Made by a program: the position numbers and the translations under genes | Assembly: GCF_030268045.1 (NCBI RefSeq) | Contig: NZ_BSDC01000002.1 | Coordinates: forward strand, 1-64,000 | DNA from: Geothrix edaphica | GTDB taxonomy: Bacteria; Acidobacteriota; Holophagae; Holophagales; Holophagaceae | Direction: 5' to 3' | Length of the DNA stretch: 64,000 bases | The notes under the pieces: generated by a model | What the model was told of the DNA's origin: nothing | What the model saw: the letters and a program-made list of their open reading frames with translations, nothing else | The model's database searches: none | In this document: positions 141-13,859 of the stretch, one piece after another | Layout of the letters: each line of letters starts with the position of its first letter | Position numbering within the stretch: position 1 is the first letter of the stretch

Positions 141-153
141 TCATTCGTTAGGC
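141..153 (+). repeat. attC remnant, 3' end only
   Basis: Only TCATTCGTTAGGC, the last 13 bases of the common attC, survives next to the inserted IS3-type element. The R' box is at 147-153. The rest of the site should reappear at the other end of the element, outside the window. Confidence 0.8.
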
Positions 154-328
154 TTCGAACAGCGGGCTCGTCTGAATCCCGTTCGGCCTGTCAATTCGCC
201 TGTTCGGCCGTTCTGCTTGGGTTCTCATGGCGGGCGTGCCTTCATGGTGGCAAGCCTCACGGTGCTCTTTCCAATCTGCTCGCTTTTCCCAGCGCCTCGG
301 TTCATGTTCCGTCAGAGCTGACGTCTCG
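154..328 (+). other. Gene-less integron cassette (family N1, copy 1)
   Basis: No ORF with a sensible start was found on either strand. The sequence is clearly related to the gene-less cassette at 9,371-9,547: both share the block around GGCGGGC.TGC.TTCATGGTG, the motif GCTCTTTCCAATC (here 264-276), CTCGGTTCATGT and the end GTCTCGGCCTAAC. The attC sites after both copies also share the variant GGCGTGGCCGGTTAGCTCC, which suggests duplication of a whole cassette. Function unknown; a non-coding RNA, a promoter or a decayed gene are all possible. Confidence 0.7.
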
Positions 329-452
329 GCCTAACCTTCAGCTCAACTCGGACCCCGCCTGCATTGCCTTCCGTTCTCTCTCATCTTCCTGCTTCCTCGG
401 CTTCGCTCACCGCCTCGGTGCAGGCGTGGCCGGTTAGCTCCATTCGTTAGGC
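329..452 (+). repeat. attC site 1 (124 bp, main subtype)
   Basis: R'' GCCTAAC at 329-335 and R' GTTAGGC at 446-452. The right arm carries GGCGTGGCC instead of the usual GGCGGGGCC, a variant shared only with the site at 9,548. Confidence 0.93.
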
Positions 453-483
453 GCATTCCATCCGCGGGGAAACTGGTCACACC

Positions 484-930
484 ATGAAACTCCAGCCCTT
501 CATCTCCATCGCATTGATCTGTGTCACTGCATCGGCGGGTGATAAGAAGATTTCTGATGGGCCGGGAATTCCAGCGAAGTCTCACCGCGACTGGAGTGAG
601 GTCAAGAAGCTCTTGGCTCGCGCGGCCAAGGCAGAACCCGACTACTCGCCAGGCAAAGAGGTGTTTCTTGTGAGCCGCGTAATTGGTGGGCAAGACGGGC
701 TGCAGTTCGTTTGGTGGAAAAACCGCCGCCGAATTCTAGTCCTGTACCACCCTCTCAATGCTGATGACGAAGACCTCCTCGCTCTTAAATCGAAATACTG
801 CGTAAACCTAGATACAGGTGTGGTCCCAACTGACGATGACATCAACGGCAGCACCTACCTTGTTTCCCAGGCTTGGGTAGATGACCGTCTCCAGGAGTGC
901 AAAACTCACGGTGTCCTTCATGTTCAATGA
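484..930 (+). CDS. Cassette protein, secreted, unknown function (148 aa)
   Basis: First coding cassette in the window. The N-terminus (about residues 1-19) is a short hydrophobic signal peptide ending near TASAG, so the product is probably periplasmic. The mature part is mixed alpha/beta and polar, with a central region around residues 55-85 (KEVFLVSRVIGGQ) and a single Cys pair near residues 106 and 141. I do not recognise a family. The ATG lies 32 bases after the R' box and the best upstream purine run is GCGGGGA. The stop precedes the R'' box by 26 bases. Confidence 0.75.
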   Translation: MKLQPFISIALICVTASAGDKKISDGPGIPAKSHRDWSEVKKLLARAAKAEPDYSPGKEVFLVSRVIGGQDGLQFVWWKNRRRILVLYHPLNADDEDLLALKSKYCVNLDTGVVPTDDDINGSTYLVSQAWVDDRLQECKTHGVLHVQ

Positions 931-956
931 GCATATTCTTCGCGCACATCCATTGC

Positions 957-1080
957 GCCTAACCCTCCGCTCAACTCGGACCCCGCCTGCATTGCCTCCC
1001 GTTCTCTCTCAGCTTCCCGCTTCCTCGGCTCCGTTCAGCGCCTCGGCGCAGGCGGGTCCGGTTAGCTTCATTCGTTAGGC
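957..1080 (+). repeat. attC site 2 (124 bp, main subtype)
   Basis: R'' GCCTAAC at 957-963 and R' GTTAGGC at 1074-1080. The right arm reads GCAGGCGGGTCCGG, a one-base change that weakens pairing in the inner stem. Confidence 0.93.
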
Positions 1081-1100
1081 CGCATCCAAGGAGTCAAAGC

Positions 1101-1571
1101 ATGCTTAGAGTGTTCCTAATTGCCCTCGCCTTGGCTTGTTCCTCAGTCGCTTACACCCAGTCGACACTTGCGCCAAACGCCCCAGAAGATAAGCCTGTCG
1201 GGTTCACTGGGGACCAGCATCAGAGACTATTGAAGGCGGTGGCGCCTTATGTGGCTCAAGCCAGAAAGACATGGCCAACGGCCAAGGCGAATTACCTCAA
1301 AGGGCTTCCACCCAAGCATGTTTTTTTTGTGACCGTCGAACTGGCTGACATGCGAGGGAAACGTGAGATCACTTTCGTGGAAGTTCAGAAAATCGAGAAC
1401 GGCATCATCACTGGCCTGATCGCGAACGAAATCTCTACCGTGTCTGGGTACAAAGCAGGTCAGAGATTTTCAATCGCAGAGGCAGAAATCTGGGATTGGA
1501 CTATCTCCAAACCTGATGGCACCGAAGACGGAAACCTCGTAGGTAAGTTTCTCGAGACCTATAAGCTCTGA
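1101..1571 (+). CDS. Cassette protein, secreted, DUF2314-like (156 aa)
   Basis: Residues 1-19 form a signal peptide (LIALALACSSVAYTQ). The C-terminal half, with FVEVQKIENGIITG, YKAGQRFSIAEAEIWDW and a final DGNLVGKF, resembles DUF2314, a small domain of unknown biochemical role found in bacterial proteins. The likeness is by eye only. The start is well supported: AAGGAG lies 8 bases before the ATG and 20 bases after the R' box of the preceding attC, so this cassette brings its own ribosome-binding site. Confidence 0.78.
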   Translation: MLRVFLIALALACSSVAYTQSTLAPNAPEDKPVGFTGDQHQRLLKAVAPYVAQARKTWPTAKANYLKGLPPKHVFFVTVELADMRGKREITFVEVQKIENGIITGLIANEISTVSGYKAGQRFSIAEAEIWDWTISKPDGTEDGNLVGKFLETYKL

Positions 1572-1588
1572 TGGTCAGTAACCATGCG

Positions 1589-1712
1589 GTCTAACCCTTA
1601 GCTCAACTCGGACCCCGCCTGCATTGCCTTCCGCTCTCTCTCAACTTCTCGCTACCTCGGCTTCGTTCAGCGTCTCGGTGCAGGCGGGGCCGGTTAGCTT
1701 CATTCGTTAGGC
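1589..1712 (+). repeat. attC site 3 (124 bp, main subtype)
   Basis: R'' is GTCTAAC (1589-1595) and R' GTTAGGC (1706-1712). R'' no longer fully complements the GTTAGGC at the left end of its own cassette (1074), which points to a point mutation after insertion. Confidence 0.92.
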
Positions 1713-1927
1713 CGCCCAACCAGCGGAGTACGCTCTAAAATTTAGGCCTGCATCGAATCAATAGGCTCCAGTTGCTCCAAAACCCGCTTCATCCGTGGTT
1801 TTCCGGTCTGCCCATTCAAATTGCGCTGATCTATAGCCCCACGGTAAAATCAGCAATTACATCCCTCTCAAACCGGATTAGGCGGATTACGAACATCTTC
1901 GTCCTCGCCGTCCAAGTCTAGTTAGGC
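1713..1927 (+). other. Gene-less segment ending in an orphan R' box
   Basis: No ORF is convincing here. The segment begins GCCCAAC at 1714-1720, an R''-like heptamer, and ends GTTAGGC at 1921-1927, just before the next gene. If these two boxes are a pair, the element is 214 bp, longer than all other sites in the array, and the middle does not show the usual arms. It may be a gene-less cassette with a very different attC or a cassette whose attC has decayed. Confidence 0.4.
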
Positions 1928-1932
1928 CGTAT

Positions 1933-2376
1933 ATGCGACGAGAATCCATCATCCTCCTCTTACTGTGCATTCCATGGTTGACTGGATGCCACATCCCCCT
2001 ATTCCCTACCCACATCAAACTTGAGAAGTGCAATCGCACTCCGCCTGATCGATTATTCAATTCCAATACCTTTGCCCCTAAAAATTCACGTTCAGAACTC
2101 ATCATCATTCGAGACGCCGGATACTACGGTGCTGATTTCGCACTTCCTGTAGCGATAGATTCAGTCCGCTTCGCTGATATCCAGATCTGGGAATCGGCAA
2201 CCGCCTACCTCGAACCAGGTCCTCACAAGGTCGAATTCACTGAGCCCCCGGGGATTATTTCCATCGGCAAGCAGCACCCAACCTTCCTTCAGATTGATAT
2301 TCCAAAACAGGGCAAAACCATCATACGTATTGATCTGGGTCGCAAATACCCAGCCATTCGCCACGCTGAATACTAG
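1933..2376 (+). CDS. Cassette lipoprotein, DUF2846-like (147 aa)
   Basis: A lipobox (LTGC, Cys at residue 19) follows a hydrophobic N-terminus, so the protein is probably a lipid-anchored envelope protein. The core, with RDAGYYGADFALPVAIDSV and the later AYLEPGPHKVEF, has the pattern of DUF2846/PEGA-like beta domains, where a turn with PG.H ends a beta-hairpin. The ATG lies 6 bases after the AGG of the GTTAGGC at 1921, so that box can act as the Shine-Dalgarno sequence. The family call is tentative. Confidence 0.75.
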   Translation: MRRESIILLLLCIPWLTGCHIPLFPTHIKLEKCNRTPPDRLFNSNTFAPKNSRSELIIIRDAGYYGADFALPVAIDSVRFADIQIWESATAYLEPGPHKVEFTEPPGIISIGKQHPTFLQIDIPKQGKTIIRIDLGRKYPAIRHAEY

Positions 2377-2389
2377 CATCCGTTATCCG

Positions 2390-2513
2390 GCCTAACCCTT
2401 CGCTCAACCCGGACCCAACCGCCCTTGCCTCCCGCTCTCCTGCGATCCTTCCGATTTCCGTTCTCCATCCATCGTCCGGTTGCGGTTGGGCCGGTTAGCT
2501 TCCTTCGTTAGGC
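2390..2513 (+). repeat. attC site 4 (124 bp, subtype B)
   Basis: R'' GCCTAAC at 2390-2396 and R' GTTAGGC at 2507-2513. The inner arms are ACCCAACCGC and GCGGTTGGGCC instead of the C/G-only arms of the main subtype; both sides changed together, so the stem is kept. Confidence 0.93.
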
Positions 2514-2877
2514 ACACCCGGCTCTTCCCCTTCGTCTTTTGGGTTTGGTCCTTCTCAATCGGATTTCGGGTTCAGTGTCCTGGCTTCGCTGGTCGTGAAT
2601 CACTTGGGTCTGGTGGCTCCGTCTGCTCCTGAATGGCGGGCTTGCGCTGCTATGCACCGGCACCACTCTCCTGCGGGCCTTGTGGTGAATCCAACGGTTT
2701 CCCGTGGCATCCTGGCTCCGCCGTTCCTCAACTCGCTCCATCTTTGGCGCAATCCGCCTCAGTTCTTTGCCTTTGGGCTCGGTCGTGTGAATGCCTGTCC
2801 TTGTTCGGTCAGCATTCCCTTCGTCCGTTCTCATCTCAGCGTCTCGGCAGCTCGGGTGGGCTTCATGTTCGAGGGGT
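2514..2877 (+). other. Gene-less integron cassette (364 bp)
   Basis: Open frames cross this segment but run into the attC and lack start signals, codon structure or recognisable products. One stretch (GAATGGCGGGCTTGCGCTGC, 2631-2650) recalls the N1 family at 154 and 9,371. Otherwise I see no structure. Confidence 0.55.
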
Positions 2878-3001
2878 GCCTAACCCTCCGCTCAACTCGG
2901 ACCCCGCCTGCATTGCCTTCCGCTCTTTCTCTTCGTCTCGCTTCCTCGGCTCCGTTCATCGCCTCGGTGCAGGCGGGGCCGGTTAGCTTCATTCGTTAGG
3001 C
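2878..3001 (+). repeat. attC site 5 (124 bp, main subtype)
   Basis: R'' GCCTAAC at 2878-2884 and R' GTTAGGC at 2995-3001; arms CCCCGCCTGCA and TGCAGGCGGGG match perfectly. Confidence 0.94.
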
Positions 3002-3007
3002 ATCTTG

Positions 3008-3226
3008 ATGTTCGCATTCATATACCGATCTCTTGGAGTCCTCTTCCTGAGCGGTGGGCTATGGATACTCGTCTACTGGATGATCAGGCTCAGCAGAGAG
3101 CAAAACCTCACCTTGATGAATGGCCTGTGGGTTTTCCTCGGTTCACTGTTCTTCATCGCTATCGGAACTATCATGACTTTCTTCACCAAGGCTACACACC
3201 TAGGCATCCCTGGCAGCGATGCCTAA
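3008..3226 (+). CDS. Cassette membrane protein, small (72 aa)
   Basis: Two membrane segments are visible, about residues 6-26 (SLGVLFLSGGLWILVYWMI) and 38-58 (GLWVFLGSLFFIAIGTIMTF), joined by a short charged loop (RLSREQN). No family recognised. The ORF fills its cassette completely: the AGG of the preceding R' box lies 7 bases before the ATG, and the stop codon TAA is part of the R'' box of the next attC (GCCTAAC at 3221). A TTG directly upstream at 3005 could add one residue. Confidence 0.72.
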   Translation: MFAFIYRSLGVLFLSGGLWILVYWMIRLSREQNLTLMNGLWVFLGSLFFIAIGTIMTFFTKATHLGIPGSDA

Positions 3227-3344
3227 CCTTCCGCTCAACTCGGACCCCACCTGCATTGCCCTCCGCTCTCTCTCAACGCCCCGCTTCCTCGGCTCCGTTC
3301 AGCGCCTCGGTGCAGGCGGGGCCGGTTAGCTTCATTCGTTAGGC
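3221..3344 (+). repeat. attC site 6 (124 bp, main subtype)
   Basis: R'' GCCTAAC at 3221-3227 contains the stop codon of the upstream ORF; R' GTTAGGC at 3338-3344 lies at Shine-Dalgarno distance from the downstream ATG. Confidence 0.94.
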
Positions 3345-3349
3345 CTCTG

Positions 3350-3844
3350 ATGACTTCCGAAGCCCAGACAACCACGATCGCTGACTCCGAGTTCATCATT
3401 GAGGTCTCGGGGTTCTTACTTTTCCTGAAACGGTTCTTTCAGGTTGGGGCAATTTGGGTACTGATTGCCTCAGTCGTTGAGTCCTTTCAGGAGCGCAACT
3501 TTCTCTACATCATTACCGGCATAATCAGCTGCTGTATTTATCTGGCAGTCGCGAAATATGCCATCAGAACATTCCCAAGGAAAGTAAGCCTCGAGGGTGA
3601 ATCTATCGTCTTTCATAAAGTCCCAACCACCTGGCTGAATATCAATGGCATCCCCATTCCCCTCGGCATCACTCAGAGGCTTGTGAAACCCAAATCCGCT
3701 GTTGTGCTCGAATGGATTGGGCGAGCATTAACATTGAATGACATGAACAACGGCAAATCCATTCGTTTAGCGGCAGGTAAGCACGCTGACCGGCTTGCAG
3801 AATGGTTCAAATCCACGGGTGTCGGCAATCCGGTCGGAGGTTGA
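3350..3844 (+). CDS. Cassette membrane protein, unknown function (164 aa)
   Basis: Two adjacent hydrophobic segments at about residues 30-48 (VGAIWVLIASVVESF) and 53-72 (FLYIITGIISCCIYLAVAKY) are followed by a soluble C-terminal half of about 90 residues with alternating beta-type sequence ending near KHADRLAEWFKSTG. The layout, two helices then a PH-like soluble domain, resembles many small bacterial inner-membrane proteins, but I cannot name a family. The only ribosome-binding candidate is the AGG of the R' box 6 bases before the ATG. Confidence 0.75.
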   Translation: MTSEAQTTTIADSEFIIEVSGFLLFLKRFFQVGAIWVLIASVVESFQERNFLYIITGIISCCIYLAVAKYAIRTFPRKVSLEGESIVFHKVPTTWLNINGIPIPLGITQRLVKPKSAVVLEWIGRALTLNDMNNGKSIRLAAGKHADRLAEWFKSTGVGNPVGG

Positions 3845-3860
3845 CCTTGATCTACAGTCG

Positions 3861-3983
3861 GCCTAACCCTCAGCTCAACTCGGACCCCGCCTGCATTGCC
3901 ATCCGCTCTCTCTTAGCTTCCCGCTTCCTCGGCTCCGCTCAGCGCCTCGGTGCAGGCGGGGCCGGTTAGCTTCATCGTTAGGC
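3861..3983 (+). repeat. attC site 7 (123 bp, main subtype)
   Basis: R'' GCCTAAC at 3861-3867 and R' GTTAGGC at 3977-3983. One base is missing before R' (TTCATCGTTAGGC instead of TTCATTCGTTAGGC). Confidence 0.93.
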
Positions 3984-3990
3984 GTTCCTC

Positions 3991-4401
3991 ATGCCAAAAA
4001 CCATCCAACGCCTTTTCATAGCCATCCTTCCCTTCATGCTCGCTTGCGGGCCTTTAGTCCACACCGTTCGCAATCCTGCGGGTATGTCGACCTCTGTTGA
4101 GTGCAAGAAGTTCGGAGACGAACTCTTTGTTGATTTCAGACTTTCGCCCATTCCAGATAACACTCCATGCCGTGTGGCGTTTGAGGGCTCGGCGCCTGAA
4201 AAACTTGAAGTCCTGACTCAGAATGGATATTCCCTTGTTCGATGGAAAGTCGATCAAGCACATCTAAAAACTTTCTCAGCCAATCTATATAACTTTAAAT
4301 TGGCCACACCATCCAATGAGTACTCTGTATCCATTAAGCTTCAACCAACTTCACAACAGATTATTTCGGCCACAATTCAGTCACTTCTTCGACTTCATTA
4401 G
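3991..4401 (+). CDS. Cassette lipoprotein, unknown function (136 aa)
   Basis: The N-terminus (RLFIAILPFMLACG) ends in a lipobox with Cys at residue 19. The mature protein reads as beta-rich, possibly an immunoglobulin-like fold (CRVAFEGSAPEKLEVLTQNG), but no family is recognised. The R' box AGG lies 8 bases upstream of the ATG and no better ribosome-binding site is seen. Base composition falls toward AT in the last third, unlike the surrounding attC sites. Confidence 0.73.
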   Translation: MPKTIQRLFIAILPFMLACGPLVHTVRNPAGMSTSVECKKFGDELFVDFRLSPIPDNTPCRVAFEGSAPEKLEVLTQNGYSLVRWKVDQAHLKTFSANLYNFKLATPSNEYSVSIKLQPTSQQIISATIQSLLRLH

Positions 4402-4414
4402 GGTAACGCTCCAC

Positions 4415-4538
4415 GCCTAACCCTCCGCTCAACTCGGACCCCACCTGCATTGCCTTCTGCTCTCTCTCAGCTACTCGCTTTCTCGGCTCCGTTCGTCGCC
4501 TCGGTGCAGGCGGGGCCGGTTAGCTTCATTCGTTAGGC
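4415..4538 (+). repeat. attC site 8 (124 bp, main subtype)
   Basis: R'' GCCTAAC at 4415-4421 and R' GTTAGGC at 4532-4538; the left arm has CCCCACCTGCA, giving one G-T or mismatched pair in the stem. Confidence 0.93.
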
Positions 4539-4575
4539 GTTACTCCATCCGGTTCGGAAACACTCAAAATCGCCA

Positions 4576-5331
4576 ATGCTCAGACAACCACTCAAACCTG
4601 GATCTATGCGGGCCTTCCTCGCAAACGAGGATAGCTTTTCCTCATTTCTGCTTCGAGAAAGCACAATAGATGGCCTCGTGCCATGTTCCAAGATCCAGAT
4701 TCAGATCACACAAGACCGGTATGAATTGTTGTTACCATCCCAAAATAACCTTCCGGTTTTCCCCGTACCTGAAGGCGACCAAGTAACTGATTACCTTGTC
4801 GATCACTCAGATCTTTGGCGGCAGGCGTCTCTGCGCCTTAGTTTCGCTCCATCTATCTGCGGATCTGCACCTATGTTCGGTGTTCCATTTCGACGCGCTG
4901 TGGAAATCGCTCTAGCGTCTGGTCACGTAAAATCAAAATTTTATTTCCCTAATCAGGCGTTCAATAAGCACTACAAAACATTGCTATTGCACCTAGACCG
5001 TACTCAAGATGCTCGCGGAGATTTAGTCCAGCTGCAGGCATGGCACTACACTCCTGGGCAGACCTATGCTTATTACCTCCATGCCCTGTCTCCCGCGTTC
5101 AACCACGAGATCTATCACCTTGATGGAGCGACCATTTCGTTTTCAGAGCCCGACCTAGATGTGCTTCTGCTCGATTCAAGGAAGATAAAGGGCACCAACT
5201 ACCAAAAGCACTTCCGCCTCGATGGCTCTTTCTCAATTGAACACATGCATTCGATTGCCAGATTCTTCTTCCCATGCACAGAGTTGTATGACGAAGCTTT
5301 TGAAATCCAACCAGTTGCTCTACACGCCTAA
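4576..5331 (+). CDS. Cassette protein, cytoplasmic, unknown function (251 aa)
   Basis: One of the longest cassette proteins and one of the few without a signal or membrane segment. I recognise no domain. Visible features are an aromatic-rich middle (FYFPNQAFNKHYKTLLLHLD; WHYTPGQTYAYYLHAL) and a C-terminal FFFPCTELYDEAFEI. There is no clear ribosome-binding site before the ATG at 4576; a second ATG at 4606 is also possible. The stop TAA belongs to the R'' box of the next attC (5326-5332). Lower GC than the chromosomal genes suggests a foreign source. Confidence 0.7.
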   Translation: MLRQPLKPGSMRAFLANEDSFSSFLLRESTIDGLVPCSKIQIQITQDRYELLLPSQNNLPVFPVPEGDQVTDYLVDHSDLWRQASLRLSFAPSICGSAPMFGVPFRRAVEIALASGHVKSKFYFPNQAFNKHYKTLLLHLDRTQDARGDLVQLQAWHYTPGQTYAYYLHALSPAFNHEIYHLDGATISFSEPDLDVLLLDSRKIKGTNYQKHFRLDGSFSIEHMHSIARFFFPCTELYDEAFEIQPVALHA

Positions 5332-5449
5332 CCCTCCGCTCAACTCGGACCCCGCCTGCATTGCCTTCCGCTCTCTCTCAACATTCCGCTTCCTCGGCTC
5401 CGTTCAGCGCCTCGGCGCAGGCGGGGCCGGTTAGCTTCATTCGTTAGGC
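5326..5449 (+). repeat. attC site 9 (124 bp, main subtype)
   Basis: R'' GCCTAAC at 5326-5332 overlaps the stop codon of the upstream ORF; R' GTTAGGC at 5443-5449. Confidence 0.94.
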
Positions 5450-5470
5450 CGCATAACCACAGGAGCCCAT

Positions 5471-5761
5471 ATGGCATTCAGCGAAGAAAAGGTCCAGCAA
5501 GTCTGGGAGAAGGGCGAGAAGGTCGCAAACAATGATCCCAATGAATGGCGGAAGGATCAGTGTGGAGCCTGGATATATAGAAAGCATTACGGCAACCGTG
5601 ATTCACAGTACGGATGGGAAATTGACCACGTTTCACCTGGGGGTTCCGACGACGTTTCCAATCTTCGCCCTCTTCAATGGAAGAACAATCTTGATAAAAG
5701 CGACGGCCGCCTTAAGTGCAACGTCGTCGCAAGTGGCACAAAGAACATCGACAATGGGTAA
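5471..5761 (+). CDS. Cassette HNH endonuclease-like protein (96 aa)
   Basis: The core GWEIDHVSPGGSDDVSNLRPL, followed by WKNNLDKSDG, is a typical HNH nuclease motif: the D-H pair (about residues 56-57) is the metal and catalytic position, NLRPL the middle part, and N..K the end. The N-terminal third has D-Q-C-G-A-W-I, as in small stand-alone HNH proteins. It is short for a complete enzyme but typical for phage or defence HNH proteins. AGGAG lies 6 bases before the ATG. No partner gene is in the cassette. Its target, if any, cannot be told from sequence. Confidence 0.8.
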   Translation: MAFSEEKVQQVWEKGEKVANNDPNEWRKDQCGAWIYRKHYGNRDSQYGWEIDHVSPGGSDDVSNLRPLQWKNNLDKSDGRLKCNVVASGTKNIDNG

Positions 5762-5763
5762 GG

Positions 5764-5887
5764 GCCTAACCTCTCGCTCAACTCGGACCCAACCGCACGT
5801 GCCCTCCGCTCTCCCATGTGCGCTGGGATTTCCGTTCCCCTTCCATCGTCCGGTCGCGGTTGGGCCGGTTAGCTTCATTCGTTAGGT
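5764..5887 (+). repeat. attC site 10 (124 bp, subtype B, R' GTTAGGT)
   Basis: R'' GCCTAAC at 5764-5770 and R' GTTAGGT at 5881-5887. The TTAGGT end complements the R'' ACCTAAC of the next cassette (6309), as expected if that cassette entered as a circle cut after the G. Confidence 0.93.
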
Positions 5888-5892
5888 GCTAC

Positions 5893-6294: not shown

Positions 6295-6308
6295 GCTGTC
6301 CATCGCGC

Positions 6309-6690: not shown

Positions 6691-6696
6691 GCTTGC

Positions 6697-7167: not shown

Positions 7168-7173
7168 CGACGC

Positions 7174-7269
7174 ACCTAACCCTACGCTCAACACGGACCG
7201 CCCAACAGCTGCGCTGTTGGGTTCCCTCCGGCCTTCGGCCTCCGGCGGCCGGTTAGCTTCACGTTAGGA
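7174..7269 (+). repeat. attC site 13 (96 bp, subtype D)
   Basis: R'' ACCTAAC at 7174-7180 and R' GTTAGGA at 7263-7269. The centre differs from every other site: a CCCAACAGC/GCTGTTGGG hairpin and GGCCTTCGGCC replace the usual loop. The outer parts (CTCAACACGGACC; GGCCGGTTAGCTTC) are still array-like. Probably a cassette brought from another integron. Confidence 0.88.
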
Positions 7270-7286
7270 CTCTCGCAGGAACTCCC

Positions 7287-7979
7287 ATGAGAACGAATTC
7301 CTCAAAATACATTCTGTTGATTATTTTTACTTCAATGTCTCTACTCTTCTTGGGCTGCAAATCAATCTACAAGACGTATGATCGTTCAGTTTCTGACGCG
7401 GAATTATTCACACAACGGTTAAATGAAGTTTTTCCATCCGATATTGCCGTTTTCATCGATCGATATAGAATCTGCCAACATTGGCTCGGAGAAGATGCAT
7501 ATGACGAAGAAAGAGGAAAAGATATCGAACGGGGGATTACTGAGAATTGCAATGGGCTGAAAGAACTTGAATCACAAATTCAAATTAAATATAAAACCAA
7601 CGAGCCTCTATTGATGAAAATGAGGCAAGCCATTAAAGATACAGATAATGGCGATACGTTCCCAAGTTTTATCTATGATGACCCTCAAAGAAAATCCAAA
7701 TTTCTTAATGAATACTATGAAGCGAAAGCACAATATATAATTAAAACCCTAGAAAAACAACTCCCTAATTATAACTATATTCTAGAAAGGAATAGAAAAA
7801 TTAGCGGGGTAGAATTATTGGAAGAACTAGCTAGTGCTAGGTACGGGCTGGAGATTCAAAACCGCTATTTGTCCGGAGTTAATAATAATATTGATCGAAT
7901 TAATCTTATTACAAGATATCGGTTGCATTCAATTGAATCCAAATTGAAAGATGCCCTTTCTCAAGAGGTACGGCCATAA
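7287..7979 (+). CDS. Cassette lipoprotein, AT-rich, unknown function (230 aa)
   Basis: The lipobox LFLGC puts Cys at residue 24 after a strong hydrophobic run (ILLIIFTSMSLLFLG), so the product is probably membrane-anchored by lipid. The rest is highly charged and helical, with many Lys, Glu, Asn and Tyr (LEKQLPNYNYILERNRK), compatible with coiled coil. The gene is strikingly AT-rich, with many ATA and AAT codons, in sharp contrast to the GC-rich genome: a clear sign of recent transfer from a low-GC donor. AGGAA lies 7 bases before the ATG. No family recognised. Confidence 0.78.
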   Translation: MRTNSSKYILLIIFTSMSLLFLGCKSIYKTYDRSVSDAELFTQRLNEVFPSDIAVFIDRYRICQHWLGEDAYDEERGKDIERGITENCNGLKELESQIQIKYKTNEPLLMKMRQAIKDTDNGDTFPSFIYDDPQRKSKFLNEYYEAKAQYIIKTLEKQLPNYNYILERNRKISGVELLEELASARYGLEIQNRYLSGVNNNIDRINLITRYRLHSIESKLKDALSQEVRP

Positions 7980-8021
7980 TCTCTAGAACTGCAGCTATAA
8001 AAGTGACCCTCCGTCACATCG

Positions 8022-8144
8022 TCCTAACCCCTAGCTCAACTCGGACCCCGCCTGCATTGCCTTCCACTCTCTCTCATCGTTTCGCTTCCTCGGCTCCGTT
8101 CGTCGCCTCGGTGCAGGCGGGGCCGGTTAGCTCATTCGTTAGGC
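8022..8144 (+). repeat. attC site 14 (123 bp, R'' TCCTAAC)
   Basis: R'' TCCTAAC at 8022-8028 and R' GTTAGGC at 8138-8144; one base is missing in TTAGCTCATTCG. R'' complements the GTTAGGA at the left cassette boundary (7263). Confidence 0.92.
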
Positions 8145-8378
8145 CGACGTGGGCGGGCTCGGCACAACGCTTTCTGGTCTGCCTCCTCAGCATCCCGTCG
8201 CGCTATCGTGTGTCATTCCATCTTCCGCTTTGCCCCTGTCAAACCTGGCTTAACCAGCTGTTCGCTCTTTCCAAAGTTGTAGCGCTCGGGCCGTAAGATC
8301 CGGCGTTGTGGCCTTCCCGCCCACCTCCGCCTAACGTGCCCGTCTCGTGGGCTCGGTTCACCCAGCAATCGGCGTACG
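8145..8378 (+). other. Gene-less cassette with long inverted repeat (family N2, copy 1)
   Basis: No ORF is supported. Positions 8138-8170 and 8303-8335 are inverted copies, 27 of 33 bases pairing, with outer ends GTTAGGC and GCCTAAC. Inside, CCCGTCGCGCTA (8194-8205) pairs with TAGCGCTCGGG (8280-8290). The RNA could fold into one long hairpin. The CTCTTTCCAAAG motif lies in the loop side (from 8265). The last 43 bases share CTCGGTTCA with the N1 family. Confidence 0.68.
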
Positions 8379-8502
8379 GCCTAACCTCTCGCTCAACTCG
8401 GACCCCGCCTGCATTGCCTCTCGCTCTCTCCCAACATTCCGCTATCCCGGCTCCGCTCATCGTCTCGGTGCAGGCGGTGCCGCTTAGCTTCATTCGTTAG
8501 GC
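8379..8502 (+). repeat. attC site 15 (124 bp, main subtype)
   Basis: R'' GCCTAAC at 8379-8385 and R' GTTAGGC at 8496-8502. The right arm reads GGCGGTGCCGCTTAGC, with changes near the inner box. Confidence 0.92.
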
Positions 8503-8732
8503 CGACGTGGGCGGGCTCGGCACAACGCTTCTGGTCTGACTTCCCCGAGGTCCCGTCGCGCTAAAGTGGATTACTCCATCTCCGTCACTTCCCGCTGGCC
8601 CTGGCTTTCCGTTCTTCCGCTCTTTTCCATTCTTAGCGCTTGGGCCGGTGGCTCCGGCGTTGTGGCCTTGCCCGCCCACCTCCGCCTAACGTTCCCGTCT
8701 CTTGGCCTCGGTTCATCCAACACCGGCGCACG
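8503..8732 (+). other. Gene-less cassette with long inverted repeat (family N2, copy 2)
   Basis: Diverged tandem copy of the preceding cassette. The first 26 bases after R' are identical. The left arm (8496-8528) pairs with 8657-8690, ending in GCCTAAC, and the inner TCGCGCTA/TAGCGCTTGGG pair is kept although neighbouring sequence has changed. No ORF on either strand is convincing. Confidence 0.68.
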
Positions 8733-8856
8733 GCCTAACCGGTCGCTCAACGCGGACCCAGCCCGCATTGTCTCCCGCTCTCTCTCATCCACTCGCTTCC
8801 TCGGCTCCGTTCAGCGCCTCGGTGCAGGCGGGGCCGGTTAGCTTCTTTCGTTAGGC
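8733..8856 (+). repeat. attC site 16 (124 bp, mosaic arms)
   Basis: R'' GCCTAAC at 8733-8739 and R' GTTAGGC at 8850-8856. The left half (GGTCGCTCAACGCGGACCCA) differs from the main subtype while the right half is standard, as if two subtypes had recombined. Confidence 0.91.
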
Positions 8857-8871
8857 TCATCTGGAGTCACC

Positions 8872-9252
8872 ATGAAACCTTGGGTCCGCAACACTGTCGG
8901 CGTGTTATGCCATGTCCCCGGCATCTACATGCTGTTCTTCATGGCATTCATGATTCTGATGATCACGAATGCTCCGAAAGAGAATGGTCATGGGATGCCC
9001 ATTTGGTTCGCTGTCATCTTCATCTTTCACATTTTCGTAATGTTTCTCATGTTCTTACTGATGGCCTTCTTCGTTATTTGGCTGCTCAAAGGAATCACTT
9101 TGAGCACTGAAGCGAAAGTGATCTGGGCCATCGGTTCGTTCATGATTGGGCCAATTATCATGCCAATACTCTATTGGCTCTACCTTCGCAAAATGCCCGA
9201 TGGCCCTTATTTCTTCGGCGCCCCCTTATCCGAAGCCTCGCCCCAAGCCTAA
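8872..9252 (+). CDS. Cassette membrane protein, three to four helices (126 aa)
   Basis: Hydrophobic segments at about residues 10-31, 44-72 and 84-106 (the middle one rich in Phe and Met) make this an inner-membrane protein; a short cytoplasmic-type tail follows (YLRKMPDGPYFFGAP). No family recognised. GGAG lies 7 bases before the ATG, giving the cassette its own ribosome-binding site, while the stop TAA lies in the R'' box of the following attC. Confidence 0.75.
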   Translation: MKPWVRNTVGVLCHVPGIYMLFFMAFMILMITNAPKENGHGMPIWFAVIFIFHIFVMFLMFLLMAFFVIWLLKGITLSTEAKVIWAIGSFMIGPIIMPILYWLYLRKMPDGPYFFGAPLSEASPQA

Positions 9253-9370
9253 CCCTCCGCTCAACTCGGACCCCGCCTGCATTGCCTTCCGCTCTCTCTC
9301 AACATCCCGCTTCCTCGGCTCCGTTCGTCGCCTCGGTGCAGGCGGGGCCGGTTAGCTTCATTCGTTAGGC
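9247..9370 (+). repeat. attC site 17 (124 bp, main subtype)
   Basis: R'' GCCTAAC at 9247-9253 supplies the stop codon of the membrane-protein ORF; R' GTTAGGC at 9364-9370. Confidence 0.94.
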
Positions 9371-9547
9371 CTCGAAAGGCCGGCCTGGCTGCATTCCGTT
9401 CAGCCGGCCAATTCGCCTGTTCGACCGTTCTGCTTTGGGTTTCGCGGCGGGCATGCGTTCATGGTGACAAGCCATTTCACGCTCTTTCCAATCTCCGCTC
9501 GGTTTTCCCAGCACCTCGGTTCATGTCCCGTCAGAACTGGCGTCTCG
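9371..9547 (+). other. Gene-less integron cassette (family N1, copy 2)
   Basis: Paralogue of the cassette at 154-328, with the same order of blocks: CAATTCGCCTGTTCG, TTCATGGTG, GCTCTTTCCAATC (9481-9493), CTCGGTTCATGTCCCGTCAG and GTCTCGG before R''. An additional inverted pair GGCCGGCCTGG/CAGCCGGCC is near its start. No ORF. Confidence 0.68.
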
Positions 9548-9671
9548 GCCTAACCTTCAGCTCAACTCGGACCCCGCCTGCATTGCCTTCCGCTCTCTCT
9601 CATCATTTCGCTTCCTCGGCTCCGCTCAGCGTCTCGGTGCAGGCGTGGCCGGTTAGCTCCATTCGTTAGGC
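9548..9671 (+). repeat. attC site 18 (124 bp, main subtype)
   Basis: R'' GCCTAAC at 9548-9554 and R' GTTAGGC at 9665-9671; shares GGCGTGGCCGGTTAGCTCC with site 1. Confidence 0.93.
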
Positions 9672-9804
9672 CTCGAAAGCAGGTTGATTCGCTCTGTTTC
9701 TGGCATTCCGCATTTCCAATCAATTCGCAGCTTGTTTCGTTCTTTCCAAAGTCGCTCAATTCTTCCGTCGCCCTGGTTCATTCGTCGGCAGAACCAGCGT
9801 CTCG
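9672..9804 (+). other. Gene-less integron cassette (family N1-related, 133 bp)
   Basis: Begins CTCGAAAG and ends CAGCGTCTCGG like its relatives. It contains TCTTTCCAAAG (from 9741) and a small hairpin CTGGTTC...GAACCAG (9773-9797) at the place where relatives have CTCGGTTCATG...CAGAACTGG. No ORF. Confidence 0.62.
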
Positions 9805-9928
9805 GCCTAACCGTTAGCTCAACTCGGACCCAACCGCTCTTGCCTTCCGTTCTCCTCCGTTCATTCTGATTTCCGCTCTCCACTCATCATCCGGCTGCGG
9901 TTGGGCCGGTTACCTTTGTTCGTTAGGC
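9805..9928 (+). repeat. attC site 19 (124 bp, subtype B)
   Basis: R'' GCCTAAC at 9805-9811 and R' GTTAGGC at 9922-9928. Arms ACCCAACCGC and GCGGTTGGGCC pair exactly; the right side has GGTTACCTTTG in place of GGTTAGCTTCA. Confidence 0.92.
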
Positions 9929-9984
9929 GAAATCCAGACATGTAGGCTCAGTCCAAAAATATGCTTCTCTCATCAGGAACCGAT

Positions 9985-10719
9985 ATGAATTTAATCAGAG
10001 TATTCCTACCAATCCTGGTTTCATGCGTGCTCATGGCCCAAAGCGACCAAGAGTTGTTGAGACGAGGAAAAGCTTTTGAAAGACAACGAGATGGACAATC
10101 TGCCATTTTGGTCCTACGCCCACTTCTCAATAAGAAGAATCCATCAGCCCAGTTTATCGTTGGAACAATTTATCTCGAAGGCAGTCGAATTTATCCAGGG
10201 ATTACGCGTGATATTGTTCGTGGTTGGGAACTTATAAAATCCTCTGCTGAGAGTGGTGATCCAGATGCTCAATACTTTTTAGCCAATGAATATGCATATG
10301 GAACAGGTAGCGAGAATAGTGGCTTGCCCCACGATCGTTCAAAAGGGGTTTATTGGTTCAAAAAGGCAGCTACTCACGGAGATGTTGGCGCCATGATTTT
10401 GCTAGCCGACTGCTACCGAGAGGGTTGGGGGACCAACATCGAGTTTGTTCAAGCAATCAAGTGGTACAGAAAAGCCTCTTCCAAAGGAAATTCTGTGGCT
10501 ATGGCAAAGCTCGCAAGGATGTATTTGGAAGGTGAGGGGGTTCCTCAAAACTTCATCGAAGCCCATGCGTGGTTGAATCTTGCGGCCACGCAGAGCAAGA
10601 GCGAAACAGTATCCTTTGACCAAGAACGAGATGCCTTGGCTGCAAAAATGAATTCAAATCAGATCGAAAAAGCACAGGCAAGGGCCAAAGTTATTCTCGC
10701 TGAGTTGCGAATCAACTAG
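9985..10719 (+). CDS. Cassette Sel1-repeat protein, secreted (244 aa)
   Basis: I start at the ATG at 9985, with AGGA 8 bases upstream; the ATG at 9961 would add eight residues before the signal peptide (LIRVFLPILVSCVLMAQ). From about residue 45 the protein is a series of Sel1-like helical repeats: GWELIKSSAESGDPDAQYFL, GVYWFKKAATHGDVGAMILL, AIKWYRKASSKGNSVAMAKL and EAHAWLNLAATQSKSETVSF. Sel1 repeats form a solenoid used for protein-protein contacts, often in the periplasm. Complete, not truncated, and alone in its cassette. Confidence 0.87.
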   Translation: MNLIRVFLPILVSCVLMAQSDQELLRRGKAFERQRDGQSAILVLRPLLNKKNPSAQFIVGTIYLEGSRIYPGITRDIVRGWELIKSSAESGDPDAQYFLANEYAYGTGSENSGLPHDRSKGVYWFKKAATHGDVGAMILLADCYREGWGTNIEFVQAIKWYRKASSKGNSVAMAKLARMYLEGEGVPQNFIEAHAWLNLAATQSKSETVSFDQERDALAAKMNSNQIEKAQARAKVILAELRIN

Positions 10720-10748
10720 GGTTTAATTGCAAAGTTTGCACCCATTTC

Positions 10749-10874
10749 GCCTAACCCTCCGCTCAAGTCGGACCCAACCTGCACGGCCTGGTATCCTCTC
10801 TCTTGTTTCCGCCTTTCTCGTCTCTGTTTAGCTTTTCGGCTGCAGGTTGGGCCGCTTAGCTGCTTTCGTTAGGC
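10749..10874 (+). repeat. attC site 20 (126 bp, subtype C)
   Basis: R'' GCCTAAC at 10749-10755 and R' GTTAGGC at 10868-10874. Arms ACCCAACCTGCA and TGCAGGTTGGGCC combine features of the main and B subtypes; the loop sequence is unrelated to the others. Confidence 0.92.
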
Positions 10875-10882
10875 CGCTGCAA

Positions 10883-11347
10883 ATGACTCACACTCCCCGC
10901 CCACGGCTACTCACAAGACTCATTGCGCTTGCCTGCGTGCTAGGTCTGGCCAGTTGTTCACCAAAGCTCCAAGAGCACAAATCTGGATCGATCTCTGCTT
11001 CGCTTACGATTGGCATTCGCAATTTGACAGTGGTCGAAATTGTCCCGAATTCCAATCCAGTGAACATCGACTGGCAAGGCTACAACACGTTAGGCGGTGG
11101 ATTCCTAGATCCGGGGTTCGAAAGGATATTCATTTCAGATTCGGCAGAGACATTTCTAGTCACTGATAAGGGTGCAGGCAACAATCGATTGTATATAAAT
11201 GGTAAGACTTATGATTTCGACGGCAACCATCAACACATACGAATTCGGTTGGGCAAAGGAATCAGTATTGAGAATGGCTCCGACCATCAACAGGCCAACC
11301 ATATCTACGATCCTGACTTCTCGGCAGCAAGAAAGAAATTTCCATGA
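10883..11347 (+). CDS. Cassette lipoprotein, unknown function (154 aa)
   Basis: The ATG at 10883 is chosen because earlier in-frame codons lie in the attC. The N-terminus LIALACVLGLASCS is a lipoprotein signal with Cys at residue 24. The mature part is beta-rich with many Asn and Gly (NIDWQGYNTLGGGFLDPGF; NNRLYINGKTYDFDGN). No family recognised. The R' AGG lies 9 bases before the ATG, at the long end of usable spacing. Confidence 0.72.
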   Translation: MTHTPRPRLLTRLIALACVLGLASCSPKLQEHKSGSISASLTIGIRNLTVVEIVPNSNPVNIDWQGYNTLGGGFLDPGFERIFISDSAETFLVTDKGAGNNRLYINGKTYDFDGNHQHIRIRLGKGISIENGSDHQQANHIYDPDFSAARKKFP

Positions 11348-11359
11348 ATTCAATCGGCG

Positions 11360-11483
11360 GCCTAACCCTCCGCTGCACTCGGACCCCGCCTGCATTGCCT
11401 TTCGTTCTCTCTCAACTTCTCGCTTCCTCGGCTCCGTTCAGCGCCTCGGTGCAGGCGGTGCCGGTGAGCTTCATTCGTTAGGC
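11360..11483 (+). repeat. attC site 21 (124 bp, main subtype)
   Basis: R'' GCCTAAC at 11360-11366 and R' GTTAGGC at 11477-11483. The inner boxes are altered (CTGCACTCGG on the left, GGTGCCGGTGAGC on the right). Confidence 0.92.
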
Positions 11484-11507
11484 GCTCACAGTTCCACGGA
11501 GCAAGCC

Positions 11508-11783
11508 ATGATCGCCACGCTCAACAAGAAAAGCCTTCAGCTTGGTGTTCCAGGTTTGGTCCTGCAGTACGGCGGGTTGTTTCTGGCTGTTGATTTCTTT
11601 CCAGTCGGTGTGTTGGCCATTCTCATCGGGACAATCCTGTTACTTTTCGGGCTTGGTTATTACCTGAAGGCGAAGAACCGAAACCTGGCGTGGGTGGTTC
11701 TGATCTTCATTCCAATCCTCGGCATCTTGTTCCTGGCACTATTGGTCGATAAATCGAAACCTCTCTCCCCCGGGCGCGCCTAA
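11508..11783 (+). CDS. Cassette membrane protein, two helices (91 aa)
   Basis: Start chosen at the ATG at 11508, preceded by GGAG (11498-11501) at 6 bases; upstream frame lies in the attC. Hydrophobic segments cover about residues 13-30, 32-50 and 60-78 (VVLIFIPILGILFLALLV). The pattern WVVLIFIPILGILFLALLVDKS resembles the PLDc_N/phage-shock-like short membrane proteins but no family is certain. The stop TAA is in the R'' box of the next attC. Confidence 0.7.
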   Translation: MIATLNKKSLQLGVPGLVLQYGGLFLAVDFFPVGVLAILIGTILLLFGLGYYLKAKNRNLAWVVLIFIPILGILFLALLVDKSKPLSPGRA

Positions 11784-11901
11784 CCCCTCGCTCAAGTCGG
11801 ACCCCGCCTGCATTGCCTTCCGCTCTCTCTCATCATTTCGCTATCTCGGCTCTGCTCATCGCCTCGGCGCAGGCGCGGCCGCTTAGCTTCATTCGTTAGG
11901 C
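11778..11901 (+). repeat. attC site 22 (124 bp, main subtype)
   Basis: R'' GCCTAAC at 11778-11784 overlaps the upstream stop codon; R' GTTAGGC at 11895-11901. Right arm GGCGCGGCCGCTTAGC is a variant. Confidence 0.92.
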
Positions 11902-11963
11902 GCCATCGACTAGGAACCACAGCAGCCAACATTCATCAAAACCAACCAGAAAGGGGCACTGCA

Positions 11964-12488
11964 ATGCACATACTCATCCCGGTCGTCCTTCTTGCCGTTT
12001 CGAGTTCTCTCGCGGCTCAGGTTGTTCGCATTAAGGTCAAGGACCAGGGGCTGCCTCCGGGGTACCGGATTGAATTCAAGATCGGAGCCACTGTTCTGGG
12101 CATTCCCGAAAAGATTGGCAAATCGGATGACCTGAAAGAACGGATTCTTGGTGAGTCTGTCAGTACCCATGAGGTCGTTCTGCTTTCGGGCCAGTCGGAG
12201 GGGCTTGCCCTCGATATTCCGCTTAAAGCCGCTCCACTAGAGGCTCCAGGCCTTCGCGTCCTCCTCGGCCTTCCAGCTACTTACACCATTTACGATTCGG
12301 CGAATCAGGTGGTTCGTTCCAGCTCTGTGAGATTTCACGCTCTGACAACCACCTTCGATGACGGTCGAATTGTGTTGTACGCCCGACAGAACGGGCTTAC
12401 CCAGGACGGCAAACCAAACATTCTCGTTGGCACTGAAATAGATGGGCAACCGAAGGCAAAAATCATCGCCATCCCTAATACCAAGTAG
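11964..12488 (+). CDS. Cassette protein, secreted, unknown function (174 aa)
   Basis: The signal peptide covers about residues 1-18 (LIPVVLLAVSSSLAAQ). The mature protein is beta-rich, with regularly alternating hydrophobic residues (VVRIKVKDQGLPPGYRIEFK). No conserved domain recognised. AAAGGGG lies about 9 bases before the ATG. The leader of 62 bases after the R' box is longer than in most cassettes. Confidence 0.73.
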   Translation: MHILIPVVLLAVSSSLAAQVVRIKVKDQGLPPGYRIEFKIGATVLGIPEKIGKSDDLKERILGESVSTHEVVLLSGQSEGLALDIPLKAAPLEAPGLRVLLGLPATYTIYDSANQVVRSSSVRFHALTTTFDDGRIVLYARQNGLTQDGKPNILVGTEIDGQPKAKIIAIPNTK

Positions 12489-12503
12489 GCCTTTACCAGA
12501 GGC

Positions 12504-12626
12504 GCCTAACCTTGCGCTCAACTCGGACCCCGCCTGCTTTGCCTTCTGCTCTCTCTCATCTCTCTGCTTCCTCGGCTTCGTTCATCGCCTCGGTGCAGGC
12601 GGGGCCGGTTAGCTTCATCGTTAGGC
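12504..12626 (+). repeat. attC site 23 (123 bp, last complete site)
   Basis: R'' GCCTAAC at 12504-12510 and R' GTTAGGC at 12620-12626; one base is missing before R' (TTCATCGTTAGGC), as in site 7. Confidence 0.93.
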
Positions 12627-12632
12627 ATTCCC

Positions 12633-12698
12633 ATGATCAGTCGTACTGCCGTCAACCTAGCCCTTGTTGTTCAGATACTGTCCCTGCCCCTTCGTTAG
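12633..12698 (+). CDS. Possible leader peptide of 21 aa, coupled to the next gene
   Basis: ATG at 12633 opens a 21-codon frame (MISRTAVNLALVVQILSLPL, then R) ending in TAG within the sequence CGTTAGGAG. That same AGGAG is the ribosome-binding site of the gene at 12708, so translation of the small frame would end on the next gene's ribosome-binding site. It may be real coupling, or chance. Confidence 0.3.
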   Translation: MISRTAVNLALVVQILSLPLR

Positions 12699-12707
12699 GA
12701 GTCTCCC

Positions 12708-13217
12708 ATGCAGCAGTACAGAGTCTTCGTGGTTTTTGGAATTTCTCTCGCTCTATTTCATTGTGGCCAGCCATTGACAACCCAACCTCGAACCCCGCCA
12801 ATACCTTCTTCGAGCGCATCATCATTGAGTATTAAGCCAGAATCTATGATCTATTTTTTTAGAGATTCCTATACTCATCCGAACGACCCAATCGCTGTAA
12901 ATACATTCAGCCAACAGAGTGCATTTACGTTGGGATATGCGAGAGTAAAGATTTCAGTCGGCCTTGATGGCCGAATTTCAAAAAGCGAATTGATCGAATC
13001 CAACGGCCACATGTGGCGTTTGATTGGGCGTTCCATTTATAAACTTGAATTCAGACCAAACGACGCGACAGAACCGGGCCCATGGGACGTTGAAATTTAT
13101 TTTTCGGCGAGACAGCCTGATCCCAGTCACGCGCCGCAAGGCAAAGATTCAAGTCCCTTTCTGAAAACGGAGGGTGAAATTGGTTTGACCATCCTGAGTG
13201 TGACTCCAAAACCATAA
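12708..13217 (+). CDS. Cassette lipoprotein, TonB C-terminal-like (169 aa)
   Basis: The N-terminus VVFGISLALFHCGQ carries a lipobox with Cys at residue 19. After a Pro/Ser-rich linker, the region from about residue 80 (LGYARVKISVGLDGRISKSE then SNGHMWRLIGRSIYKLEFRP) resembles the TonB C-terminal fold, which in other proteins contacts outer-membrane partners. No transmembrane anchor other than the lipid. AGGAG (12697-12701) is 6 bases before the ATG. It is the last gene of the intact array and its attC has lost the right end. Confidence 0.72.
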   Translation: MQQYRVFVVFGISLALFHCGQPLTTQPRTPPIPSSSASSLSIKPESMIYFFRDSYTHPNDPIAVNTFSQQSAFTLGYARVKISVGLDGRISKSELIESNGHMWRLIGRSIYKLEFRPNDATEPGPWDVEIYFSARQPDPSHAPQGKDSSPFLKTEGEIGLTILSVTPKP

Positions 13218-13237
13218 ATCATGTTTCTGCCTGGGTC

Positions 13238-13343
13238 GCCTAACCCTCCGCTCAGCTCGGATCCCGCCTCCATTGCCTTCCACTCTTTCTCTTCTTCTTG
13301 CGTCCTCGGCTCCGCTCATGGCCTCGGGGCTTGCAGGGCCGGT
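13238..13343 (+). repeat. attC, 3' end lost (end of intact array)
   Basis: R'' GCCTAAC at 13238-13244 and the left two thirds match the main subtype, but after GGGCCGGT the sequence changes and TAGCTTCATTCGTTAGGC is absent. The site should not recombine. Confidence 0.88.
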
Positions 13344-13416
13344 CATGGGAAAGCCCTCACCGGAACAGGGACACCACCCTTCCACCCACGCTTGGATCCA
13401 GGTTGATGGTCAGGGG

Positions 13417-13799: not shown

Positions 13800-13859
13800 C
13801 GCCTTTCAATACGAATGACCTGACGTGCCCTCTTGCACCTCCAGCGCCACCGTCTTGCG

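Follow-up and report, generated by a model that had tools for sequence, protein, structure and literature searches.

An integron array in Geothrix edaphica with an attI-bearing gene-less unit, and attI-like sites heading integrase-less arrays

The window, the whole 64,000-nt stretch of the Geothrix edaphica genome analysed here, carries a large attC array at its left end. From sequence comparison, the best explanation, which we hold to be quite probable, is that this array forms the far portion of the primary integron, that attI has been copied into a gene-less unit (el217) and to orphan chromosomal sites, and that one IntI inserted cassettes there in trans. The evidence consists of the array anatomy, synteny, attI-like cores, conserved left flanks beside changing cassettes, and a cassette in common with an orphan array from a different species; from these we infer recombination at the orphan sites and at el217, action in trans and the origin of the attI copies.

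Array anatomy and its link to the primary integron

The 23 complete attC sites described in the earlier note were all present and all on the + strand, with R' boxes at 446-12620. Eighteen were exactly 124 bp long, three were 123 bp, one was 126 bp and one was 96 bp; with a mean column identity of 84% across the window sites, they are homogeneous and not, as had been claimed, nearly identical. Two types were distinguished, the main one with the arm CCCCGCCTGCA and the second with CCCAACC. On the bottom strand the sites fold as textbook attC, with a 7-bp R helix, an unpaired spacer, an L helix with extrahelical bases and a long arm, which bears out the boxes and pairing arms noted before. Standard pairs filled 95.5% of the cells of that structure, vs 17-49% with the partners slid. 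Both partners had changed in five pairs; for the last pair of the arm this was seen in a single sequence only. The R and L boxes, extrahelical bases and single orientation expected of a sedentary integron were thus found in 23 complete sites.

An insertion-sequence end (1-140, - strand) truncates the first attC at the left edge of the array, leaving an R' remnant at 147-153; the same end recurs on contig C4, upstream of the attC array at its right end. All further features are on the + strand. A gene-less cassette of family g2 (154-328; attC 329-452), present in other Geothrix, is followed by an ORF at 484-930 (attC 957-1080) and a DUF2314 ORF at 1101-1571 (attC 1589-1712). Then comes el217 (1707-1921), with an ORF directly 3' of it (1933-2376; second-type attC 2390-2513), a gene-less g3 cassette (2514-2877; attC 2878-3001) and an ORF with a hydrophobic product (3005-3226; attC 3221-3344). 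ORFs at 3350-3844, 3991-4401 and 4576-5331 (attC 3861-3983, 4415-4538 and 5326-5449) precede one with an HNH-like motif, seen by eye and without a Pfam match (5471-5761; second-type attC 5764-5887). After an ORF at 5893-6294 (attC 6309-6432) and a gene-less g4 cassette (6433-6566; attC 6567-6690), an ORF at 6697-7167 ends in the short 96-bp attC (7174-7269) and an AT-rich ORF at 7287-7979 in attC 8022-8144.

Two gene-less g1 cassettes follow at 8145-8378 and 8503-8732 (attC 8379-8502 and 8733-8856), a family that is conserved across Geothrix and also supplies the first cassette of an orphan array in the same genome. Beyond an ORF for a membrane protein, predicted by eye (8872-9252; attC 9247-9370), family g2 is repeated (9371-9547; attC 9548-9671), and a gene-less cassette for which no relatives were found (9672-9804) carries a second-type attC (9805-9928). 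The remaining units are a Sel1-repeat ORF (9961-10719; 126-bp attC 10749-10874), an ORF at 10883-11347 (attC 11360-11483), another ORF for a membrane protein predicted by eye (11508-11783; attC 11778-11901) and an ORF at 11964-12488 with the last complete attC (12504-12626). After an ORF at 12708-13217, an attC truncated at its 3' side (13238-13343) forms the distal end, and a degenerate attC lies past it at 13860-13980. The cassettes between attC sites therefore hold a single gene or, in seven cases, none, as had been stated; the unit at 1707-1927, with an attI-like site instead of attC, had been missed.

Pfam and PADLOC searches of the cassette ORFs gave nothing beyond DUF2314, Sel1 repeats and one marginal PtuA match, which was read as Sel1/coil noise. 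No credible Rfam match was obtained at the gathering threshold on 1-20000 or at E<=0.5 on 8100-9810, and the gene-less families had no codon periodicity. In a promoter scan, shuffled sequence contained more promoter-like sites than the array did, and el217 had none, so a promoter role for el217 is unsupported.

Both intI and attI, for which the earlier note had proposed a search, were found at the end of contig C3. The integrase (557586-558482) matches TIGR02249 with 429 bits (cut-off 265). An island of about 28 kb splits the gene just before the catalytic-tyrosine codon, and the catalytic-tyrosine segment is lost in this strain; IntI is thus probably inactive now and the array probably frozen, and the arrays of this genome may be static. 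In relatives intI is full length, with broken primary copies in G035 and G018. The primary attI adjoins intI (L015:13714-13733), ends in TGTCCAATTTAAAG|TTAGGC and is conserved in 25 relatives.

In four relatives with continuous sequence (G010, G020, G007 and G017), the genes glsA and ahcY, which flank the window array, lie distal to the intI array, which would place the window array at the far end of that array. This supports reading the window array as the far portion of the primary, sedentary chromosomal integron, whose intI and attI are on C3; an assembly gap separates C3 from C2, and their joining relies on the synteny in these four relatives. The same synteny decided in favour of the intI array over a continuation of one of the orphan arrays found at the ends of contigs (left of C1, right of C2). 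A chromosomal integron in a non-Vibrio host, as first proposed, is therefore supported by IntI, attI and synteny, the host being an acidobacterium. Its sedentary nature is also supported, with the qualification that intI is split here; the duplicated attI and the orphan-attI arrays had escaped that reading.

Most window cassettes had no match in the sequence of relatives examined, and species differ almost completely. A few were 94-97% identical to cassettes of other species, in other positions: the DUF2314 cassette (97.2%, in an orphan-attI array of G010) and those with the ORFs at 3350-3844 (94%, G005), 5893-6294 (95.5%, G011) and 11964-12488 (97.3%, G009). This supports mobility of the cassettes, and the turnover for which the earlier note proposed a comparison of related strains was seen between Geothrix species. 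The array would have been assembled by IntI-mediated attC x attI recombination, with attC folded on the bottom strand. That it is an inert tandem-repeat array and not an integron, which the earlier note allowed if both an integrase and cassette differences were lacking, has a negligible probability. IntI is disrupted in this genome and the array contig lacks intI, but this reading is already refuted by the IntI match, the attC covariation, the glsA/ahcY synteny with an intI platform and the exchange of cassettes between species.

A gene-less unit ending in attI

The right end of el217 (215 bp) is an attI-like site, not an attC; its core at 1909-1927 reads CGTCCAAGTCTAG|TTAGGC, and the last ~55 bp are 84-89% identical to the primary attI of other Geothrix. 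Eleven of the 47 Geothrix genomes carried copies of el217, and none of 30 other genomes of the family did; the copies sit exactly at G|TT, after attC R' boxes or after the primary attI. From these exact junctions in different contexts we infer that el217 was moved like a cassette by IntI. It would insert at G|TT after attI or attC, bringing its own attI at the right end.

As in the delta-attI-type cassettes of class 1/2 mobile integrons, whose right end is a whole or partial attI and for which excision and insertion by IntI1 were shown experimentally (PMC12901181), an attI-derived right-hand site replaces attC in el217. Unlike those cassettes (PMC12901181), el217 is gene-less, with no ORF of at least 55 aa within 1707-1921, has a long attI and resides in a sedentary chromosomal integron; its conservation among Geothrix species is 76-96%. 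We regard it as very improbable that el217 is a gene-less cassette of the usual kind whose attC is exceptionally long (~217 bp). The unit does start near GCCCAAC and end in GTTAGGC, a possible R''/R' pair, but other copies have GCCCATC or GCCCTCC in place of the first box, and el217 has no L'' box, no extrahelical-base pattern and no attC model match. Its end is homologous to the primary attI, and modules related to it stand at the head of arrays.

Orphan attI sites and integrase-less arrays

In many Geothrix species, attI-like cores without intI head integrase-less arrays at other chromosomal loci. The left core of these orphan sites follows CGTCYAAT-N4-AG, and the search pattern allowed a gap of 4-5 nt because most sites have 5-nt spacing, not 4. 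The pattern had 86 matches vs 12 for its reversed form in 77 genomes, and 51 vs 0 in 13 good genomes. Discovery by pattern only gave 26 sites; 24 had enough downstream sequence, and in all of these attC sites then lay downstream on the strand expected. Up to six pattern sites occurred per genome; there were no exact-pattern sites in G035 and G033, and the site at lpxB was absent from G020, G010, G017 and G035.

An attC model search found 51 attC in the G. edaphica genome. CALINs are defined by two or more attC with no intI close by; such clusters were present at C2:658383-660562, C3:160284-161046 and C4:83144-84643, among others. Platform elements do remain in such clusters, since an attI-like core heads most secondary arrays; no recognisable attI head was seen at two clusters of this genome, near C2:652k and C1:934k, the latter a single degenerate attC.

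The orphan sites match attI over ~20 to >100 bp. IntI1 is reported to insert cassettes at non-classical attG sites (Loot et al. 2024, as cited in the accessible text of PMC12444791, PMC11023631 and PMC12901181), and cassettes might likewise have entered ordinary chromosomal attG-like sites with little beyond G|TT, the attI-like left half being host DNA that fits by chance. We consider this quite unlikely: the left core is far above chance, spacer positions that the pattern leaves unspecified (TTCAA) match the primary attI, and long modules at unrelated loci have >100 bp in common with each other. Some orphan sites that resemble attI over only ~20 bp could be chromosomal sequences serving as good targets.

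Between species, the 100 nt to the left of orthologous orphan sites were on average 63-83% identical, and the 100 nt to the right 33-46% (shuffled 31-38%); the first cassette was common to only 1 of 77 species pairs. First cassettes thus continued to change after species split, which argues against the orphan-attI arrays being decayed complete integrons that each lost their own intI at the locus. The usual proposal for CALINs is that they are degraded integrons (PMC9024848), the homology of the long modules seems by eye to start near the position of the intI start codon in related platforms, and two primary intI genes are broken, as described above; yet this origin appears unlikely. By tblastn, no intI remnant was found at the orphan loci examined, where the only matches were the primary intI (L168) and its edge (L271). 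The upstream gene ends 100-300 bp from the orphan site at several loci, the short sites have only ~20-60 bp in common with attI, and up to six sites per genome would need an independent loss of intI for each.

We prefer copied attI sites served by one integrase. The primary attI would have been copied in two ways, as el217 inside arrays and as orphan attI at intergenic chromosomal positions, each orphan copy heading an array without intI. A single IntI most likely inserted cassettes at these sites in trans and so would have fed several arrays that draw on a common cassette pool. The simplest route to new copies may be recombination of attI-bearing circles with attC, attI or chromosomal GTT sites.

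Relation to known systems

In the standard integron model there is one attI per intI. Clusters of attC that lack an integrase occur about as often as complete integrons and are usually termed degraded integrons. Integrons, CALINs and delta-attI cassettes are all already known, and no report of conserved orphan attI heading integrase-less arrays was found in the open-access literature.

Like the Vibrio VCR and Xanthomonas sedentary integrons, the Geothrix system occupies a conserved chromosomal locus with intI, attI and a long run of single-gene cassettes whose attC are homogeneous; its products are mostly unknown and some cassettes gene-less. It differs from them in its acidobacterial host, in an attI duplicated in the array and at several chromosomal loci, and in the intI broken in this strain. 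Geothrix is a non-pathogenic genus of soil bacteria. As in the conserved-locus CALINs of Xanthomonas, there are several attC arrays without adjoining intI in a genome, at loci that are conserved from species to species (accessible text of PMC12444791); unlike those, for which that text describes no attI, nearly all of the Geothrix arrays are headed by a recognisable attI core. The orphan sites resemble attG as putative IntI insertion points in the chromosome outside the integron. As summarised in the same text, attG are neither attC nor attI and are broadly spread (Loot et al. 2024), whereas in Geothrix the sites match attI, with conservation at orthologous loci.

The wider reading, which we lean towards slightly, is a distributed integron: one IntI may serve several attI platforms, attI would be a mobile cassette-like module that seeds new platforms within arrays and at conserved intergenic sites, and many CALINs would be satellite arrays fed in trans instead of dead integrons. 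If attI is copied and moved and its orphan copies are fed in trans, satellite arrays would be a regular part of the integron system, cassette expression would not be confined to one position, and the location of CALINs could be predicted from a short motif. The motif, the orthologous loci and the intact intI genes of relatives make the in trans model directly testable in Geothrix.

The window array and its integrase

All 23 complete attC sites that the earlier note had placed on one strand were recovered on the + strand within 141-13343 of the window, the first 64 kb of C2 (660,716 bp) in a genome of 3.16 Mb and six contigs. Their lengths were 124 bp (n = 18), 123 bp (n = 3), 126 bp (n = 1) and 96 bp (n = 1), and mean column identity across the aligned sites was 84%. 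The attC hairpin is a fold of the bottom strand, with 95.5% paired cells in the named structure vs 17-49% in slid structures, and both-side changes occurred at five pairs, one of which (the last pair of the arm) changed in a single sequence only. An insertion sequence (1-140) cuts the array on the left, and on the right it is broken off in a truncated attC (13238-13343). It holds seven gene-less cassettes and 17 cassette ORFs, most of which had no match in the Pfam search (only DUF2314 and Sel1 repeats were recognized). The cassette protein at 5471-5761 has an HNH-nuclease-like motif (EIDHVSPGGSDDVSNLRPLQWKNNLDKSD) under the Pfam detection level.

The IntI search identified one integron integrase in the genome, at the right end of C3 (TIGR02249, 429 bits); attI, which the note had suggested looking for along with intI, is present there too. 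This IntI is closest to that of Geothrix oryzisoli (94%), followed by those of other Geothrix species (80-88%), all within Acidobacteriota. Upstream of intI are located attI (...CTGTCCAATTTAAAG/TTAGGC), cassettes and the contig end. On the distal flank of the window array, glsA and ahcY lie at 21.7 kb and 25.9 kb. Four relatives whose sequence is uninterrupted here (G010, G020, G007, G017) carry both genes past the far end of the intI array, and by this gene order the window array appears to be the distal part of the primary integron. C2 and C3 are taken to adjoin across an assembly gap. The observation and the main interpretation of the earlier note both hold. The array itself belongs to a known kind of system, and an integron in Acidobacteriota is not new, since taxon-specific attC models already include the phylum (PMC8352920).

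Our IntI covers TIGR02249 only to position 299 of 315, with the remainder at C3:529229-529294. The frame is interrupted just ahead of the catalytic-tyrosine codon, where ~28.3 kb of DNA has been inserted; at the break, TTMIYTHVL in relatives is replaced by TTIIRTYGLL and a stop. The insert (C3:529.3k-557.6k; 6601-12554 of L015, the intI/attI region) encodes a helicase-like gene as well as a VPA1267-family protein and has three tyrosine-recombinase genes side by side. The three recombinase genes and the VPA1267-family protein make it look like a trio-recombinase island, similar to gamma-mobile-trio or recombinase-in-trio elements but in an acidobacterial host. The integron of this strain is probably silent at present. 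IntI was above the cut-off in 29 of 47 Geothrix genomes. In G035 (C1:774208-775153), where attC sites are few (14), and in G018 (C18/C25), the primary intI is broken by a split or by stop codons. IntI homologues with up to 60% identity to ours also occur on viral-collection contigs (IMG/VR, L017-L037), some of which may be misbinned chromosomal integrons and some perhaps phage-borne.

A gene-less unit carrying attI

A unit overlooked in the earlier note, el217 (1707-1921, core reaching 1927), has neither gene nor attC. It comes right after the attC at 1589-1712, joined to its R' box exactly at G/TT. Its final ~55 bp are 84-89% identical to the primary attI of other Geothrix, and a second copy in this genome (91% identical) immediately follows the primary attI on C3. 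Copies were present in 11 of 47 Geothrix genomes and in none of 30 genomes from other genera of the family. They follow the primary attI (this genome, G004, G012), an attC (the window, G020, G011) or an older attI-like module (G009), or head arrays beside a tetratricopeptide-like gene (G009, G020, G010). The simplest reading of these placements is that el217 is an attI-bearing cassette. Its circular form would include a complete attI, and recombination of that attI with an attC or with another attI would put it in the observed positions; attI x attI recombination occurs at low frequency (PMC4792948). In mobile integrons, delta-attI cassettes have been described and are active (PMC12901181); their counterpart in Geothrix would be gene-less and conserved across the genus. 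No report of such a genus-wide gene-less attI cassette was found in the open-access literature.

Orphan attI sites and their probable use

The covariance-model scan proposed in the note gave 51 attC matches genome-wide, about half of them outside the window, where nearly all clusters start with an attI-like core without intI. Examples, with flanking genes named by eye, are the orphan cores that follow an aldo-keto reductase gene at C1:603k, an M28-type peptidase gene at C2:658k and an lpxB-like gene at C3:162k, and those at C1:1087k, C1:1688k and C4:85k; variant cores occur at C1:1269k and C1:1.9k (after folE). The core pattern CGYCYAA-N(4-5)-AGTTAGG matched 51 times in 13 good genomes vs 0 for the reversed pattern, and 86 vs 12 times in 77 genomes. 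Among 26 sites picked by this pattern alone, all 24 testable ones (>220 bp downstream) had a downstream attC within 5 kb on the expected strand, one being a primary attI with an intI edge alongside. The spacer, left free in the pattern, reads TTCAA in orphan sites and primary attI, which argues for common descent of the two. Primary attI and many orphan sites also have a TTAGGCG-like box ~20-30 nt upstream of the core, a candidate accessory site for IntI. In long attI modules (e.g. L157:17214-17351, L215, L216, L206) a conserved motif, TAGCTCCRCGGTTCNTTCAACAMTTAC, lies between an intI-start-like end and the TTAGGCGAAC box; also present in Holophaga-type primary attI (L072, L076), it might serve as a promoter, as a regulator or as an accessory site for the integrase.

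Orthologous orphan loci were compared in up to 11 species. Mean identity was 63-83% over 100 nt left of the crossover and 33-46% over 100 nt to its right, close to that of shuffled sequence (31-38%), and only one of 77 species pairs had a first cassette in common. The lpxB-locus site is missing in G020, G010, G017 and G035. A stable left half beside a variable right half is the pattern expected of an attI in use. Transfer of whole arrays does not account for it, because the left flanks are part of the locus. AttC architecture, attI homology, G/TT junctions, the conservation pattern and cassette sharing are read directly from the DNA; in the model we propose, IntI would bind the orphan cores and insert cassettes there in trans, and attI circles would form.

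CALINs are usually viewed as degraded integrons, and attI sites outside class 1 are poorly described (PMC9024848). In Xanthomonas, CALINs at conserved loci are read as ancestral activity and contrasted with dispersed attG insertion (PMC12444791). We found no open-access report of conserved orphan attI heading CALINs. With its duplicated, apparently mobile attI and its orphan-attI arrays, the Geothrix system departs from the usual integron plan while remaining of a known kind.

Cassette turnover and gene-less families

For four gene cassettes of the window, a close copy (94-97%) was found in another Geothrix species: in G010 for 1081-1588, in G005 for 3345-3860, in G011 for 5888-6308 and in G009 for 11902-12503. 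Most others were unmatched in the array sequence of relatives compared, which bears out, between species, the cassette turnover raised in the note. Since the G010 copy sits in an array without adjoining intI, cassettes are common to both array types across species.

The gene-less family g1 (window 8145-8378 and 8503-8732; L159:7975-8205; L260:333-556) shows 78-91% identity between Geothrix species, lacks codon periodicity and matched nothing in Rfam. Its invariant ends (GTTAGGC-CGACGTGGGCGGG ... CCCGCCCACCTCCGCCTAAC) form a large inverted repeat that takes in the recombination box. Other pyrimidine-rich gene-less families (window 154-328, 9371-9547, 6433-6566, 2514-2877) recur among Geothrix species and in both primary and orphan arrays.
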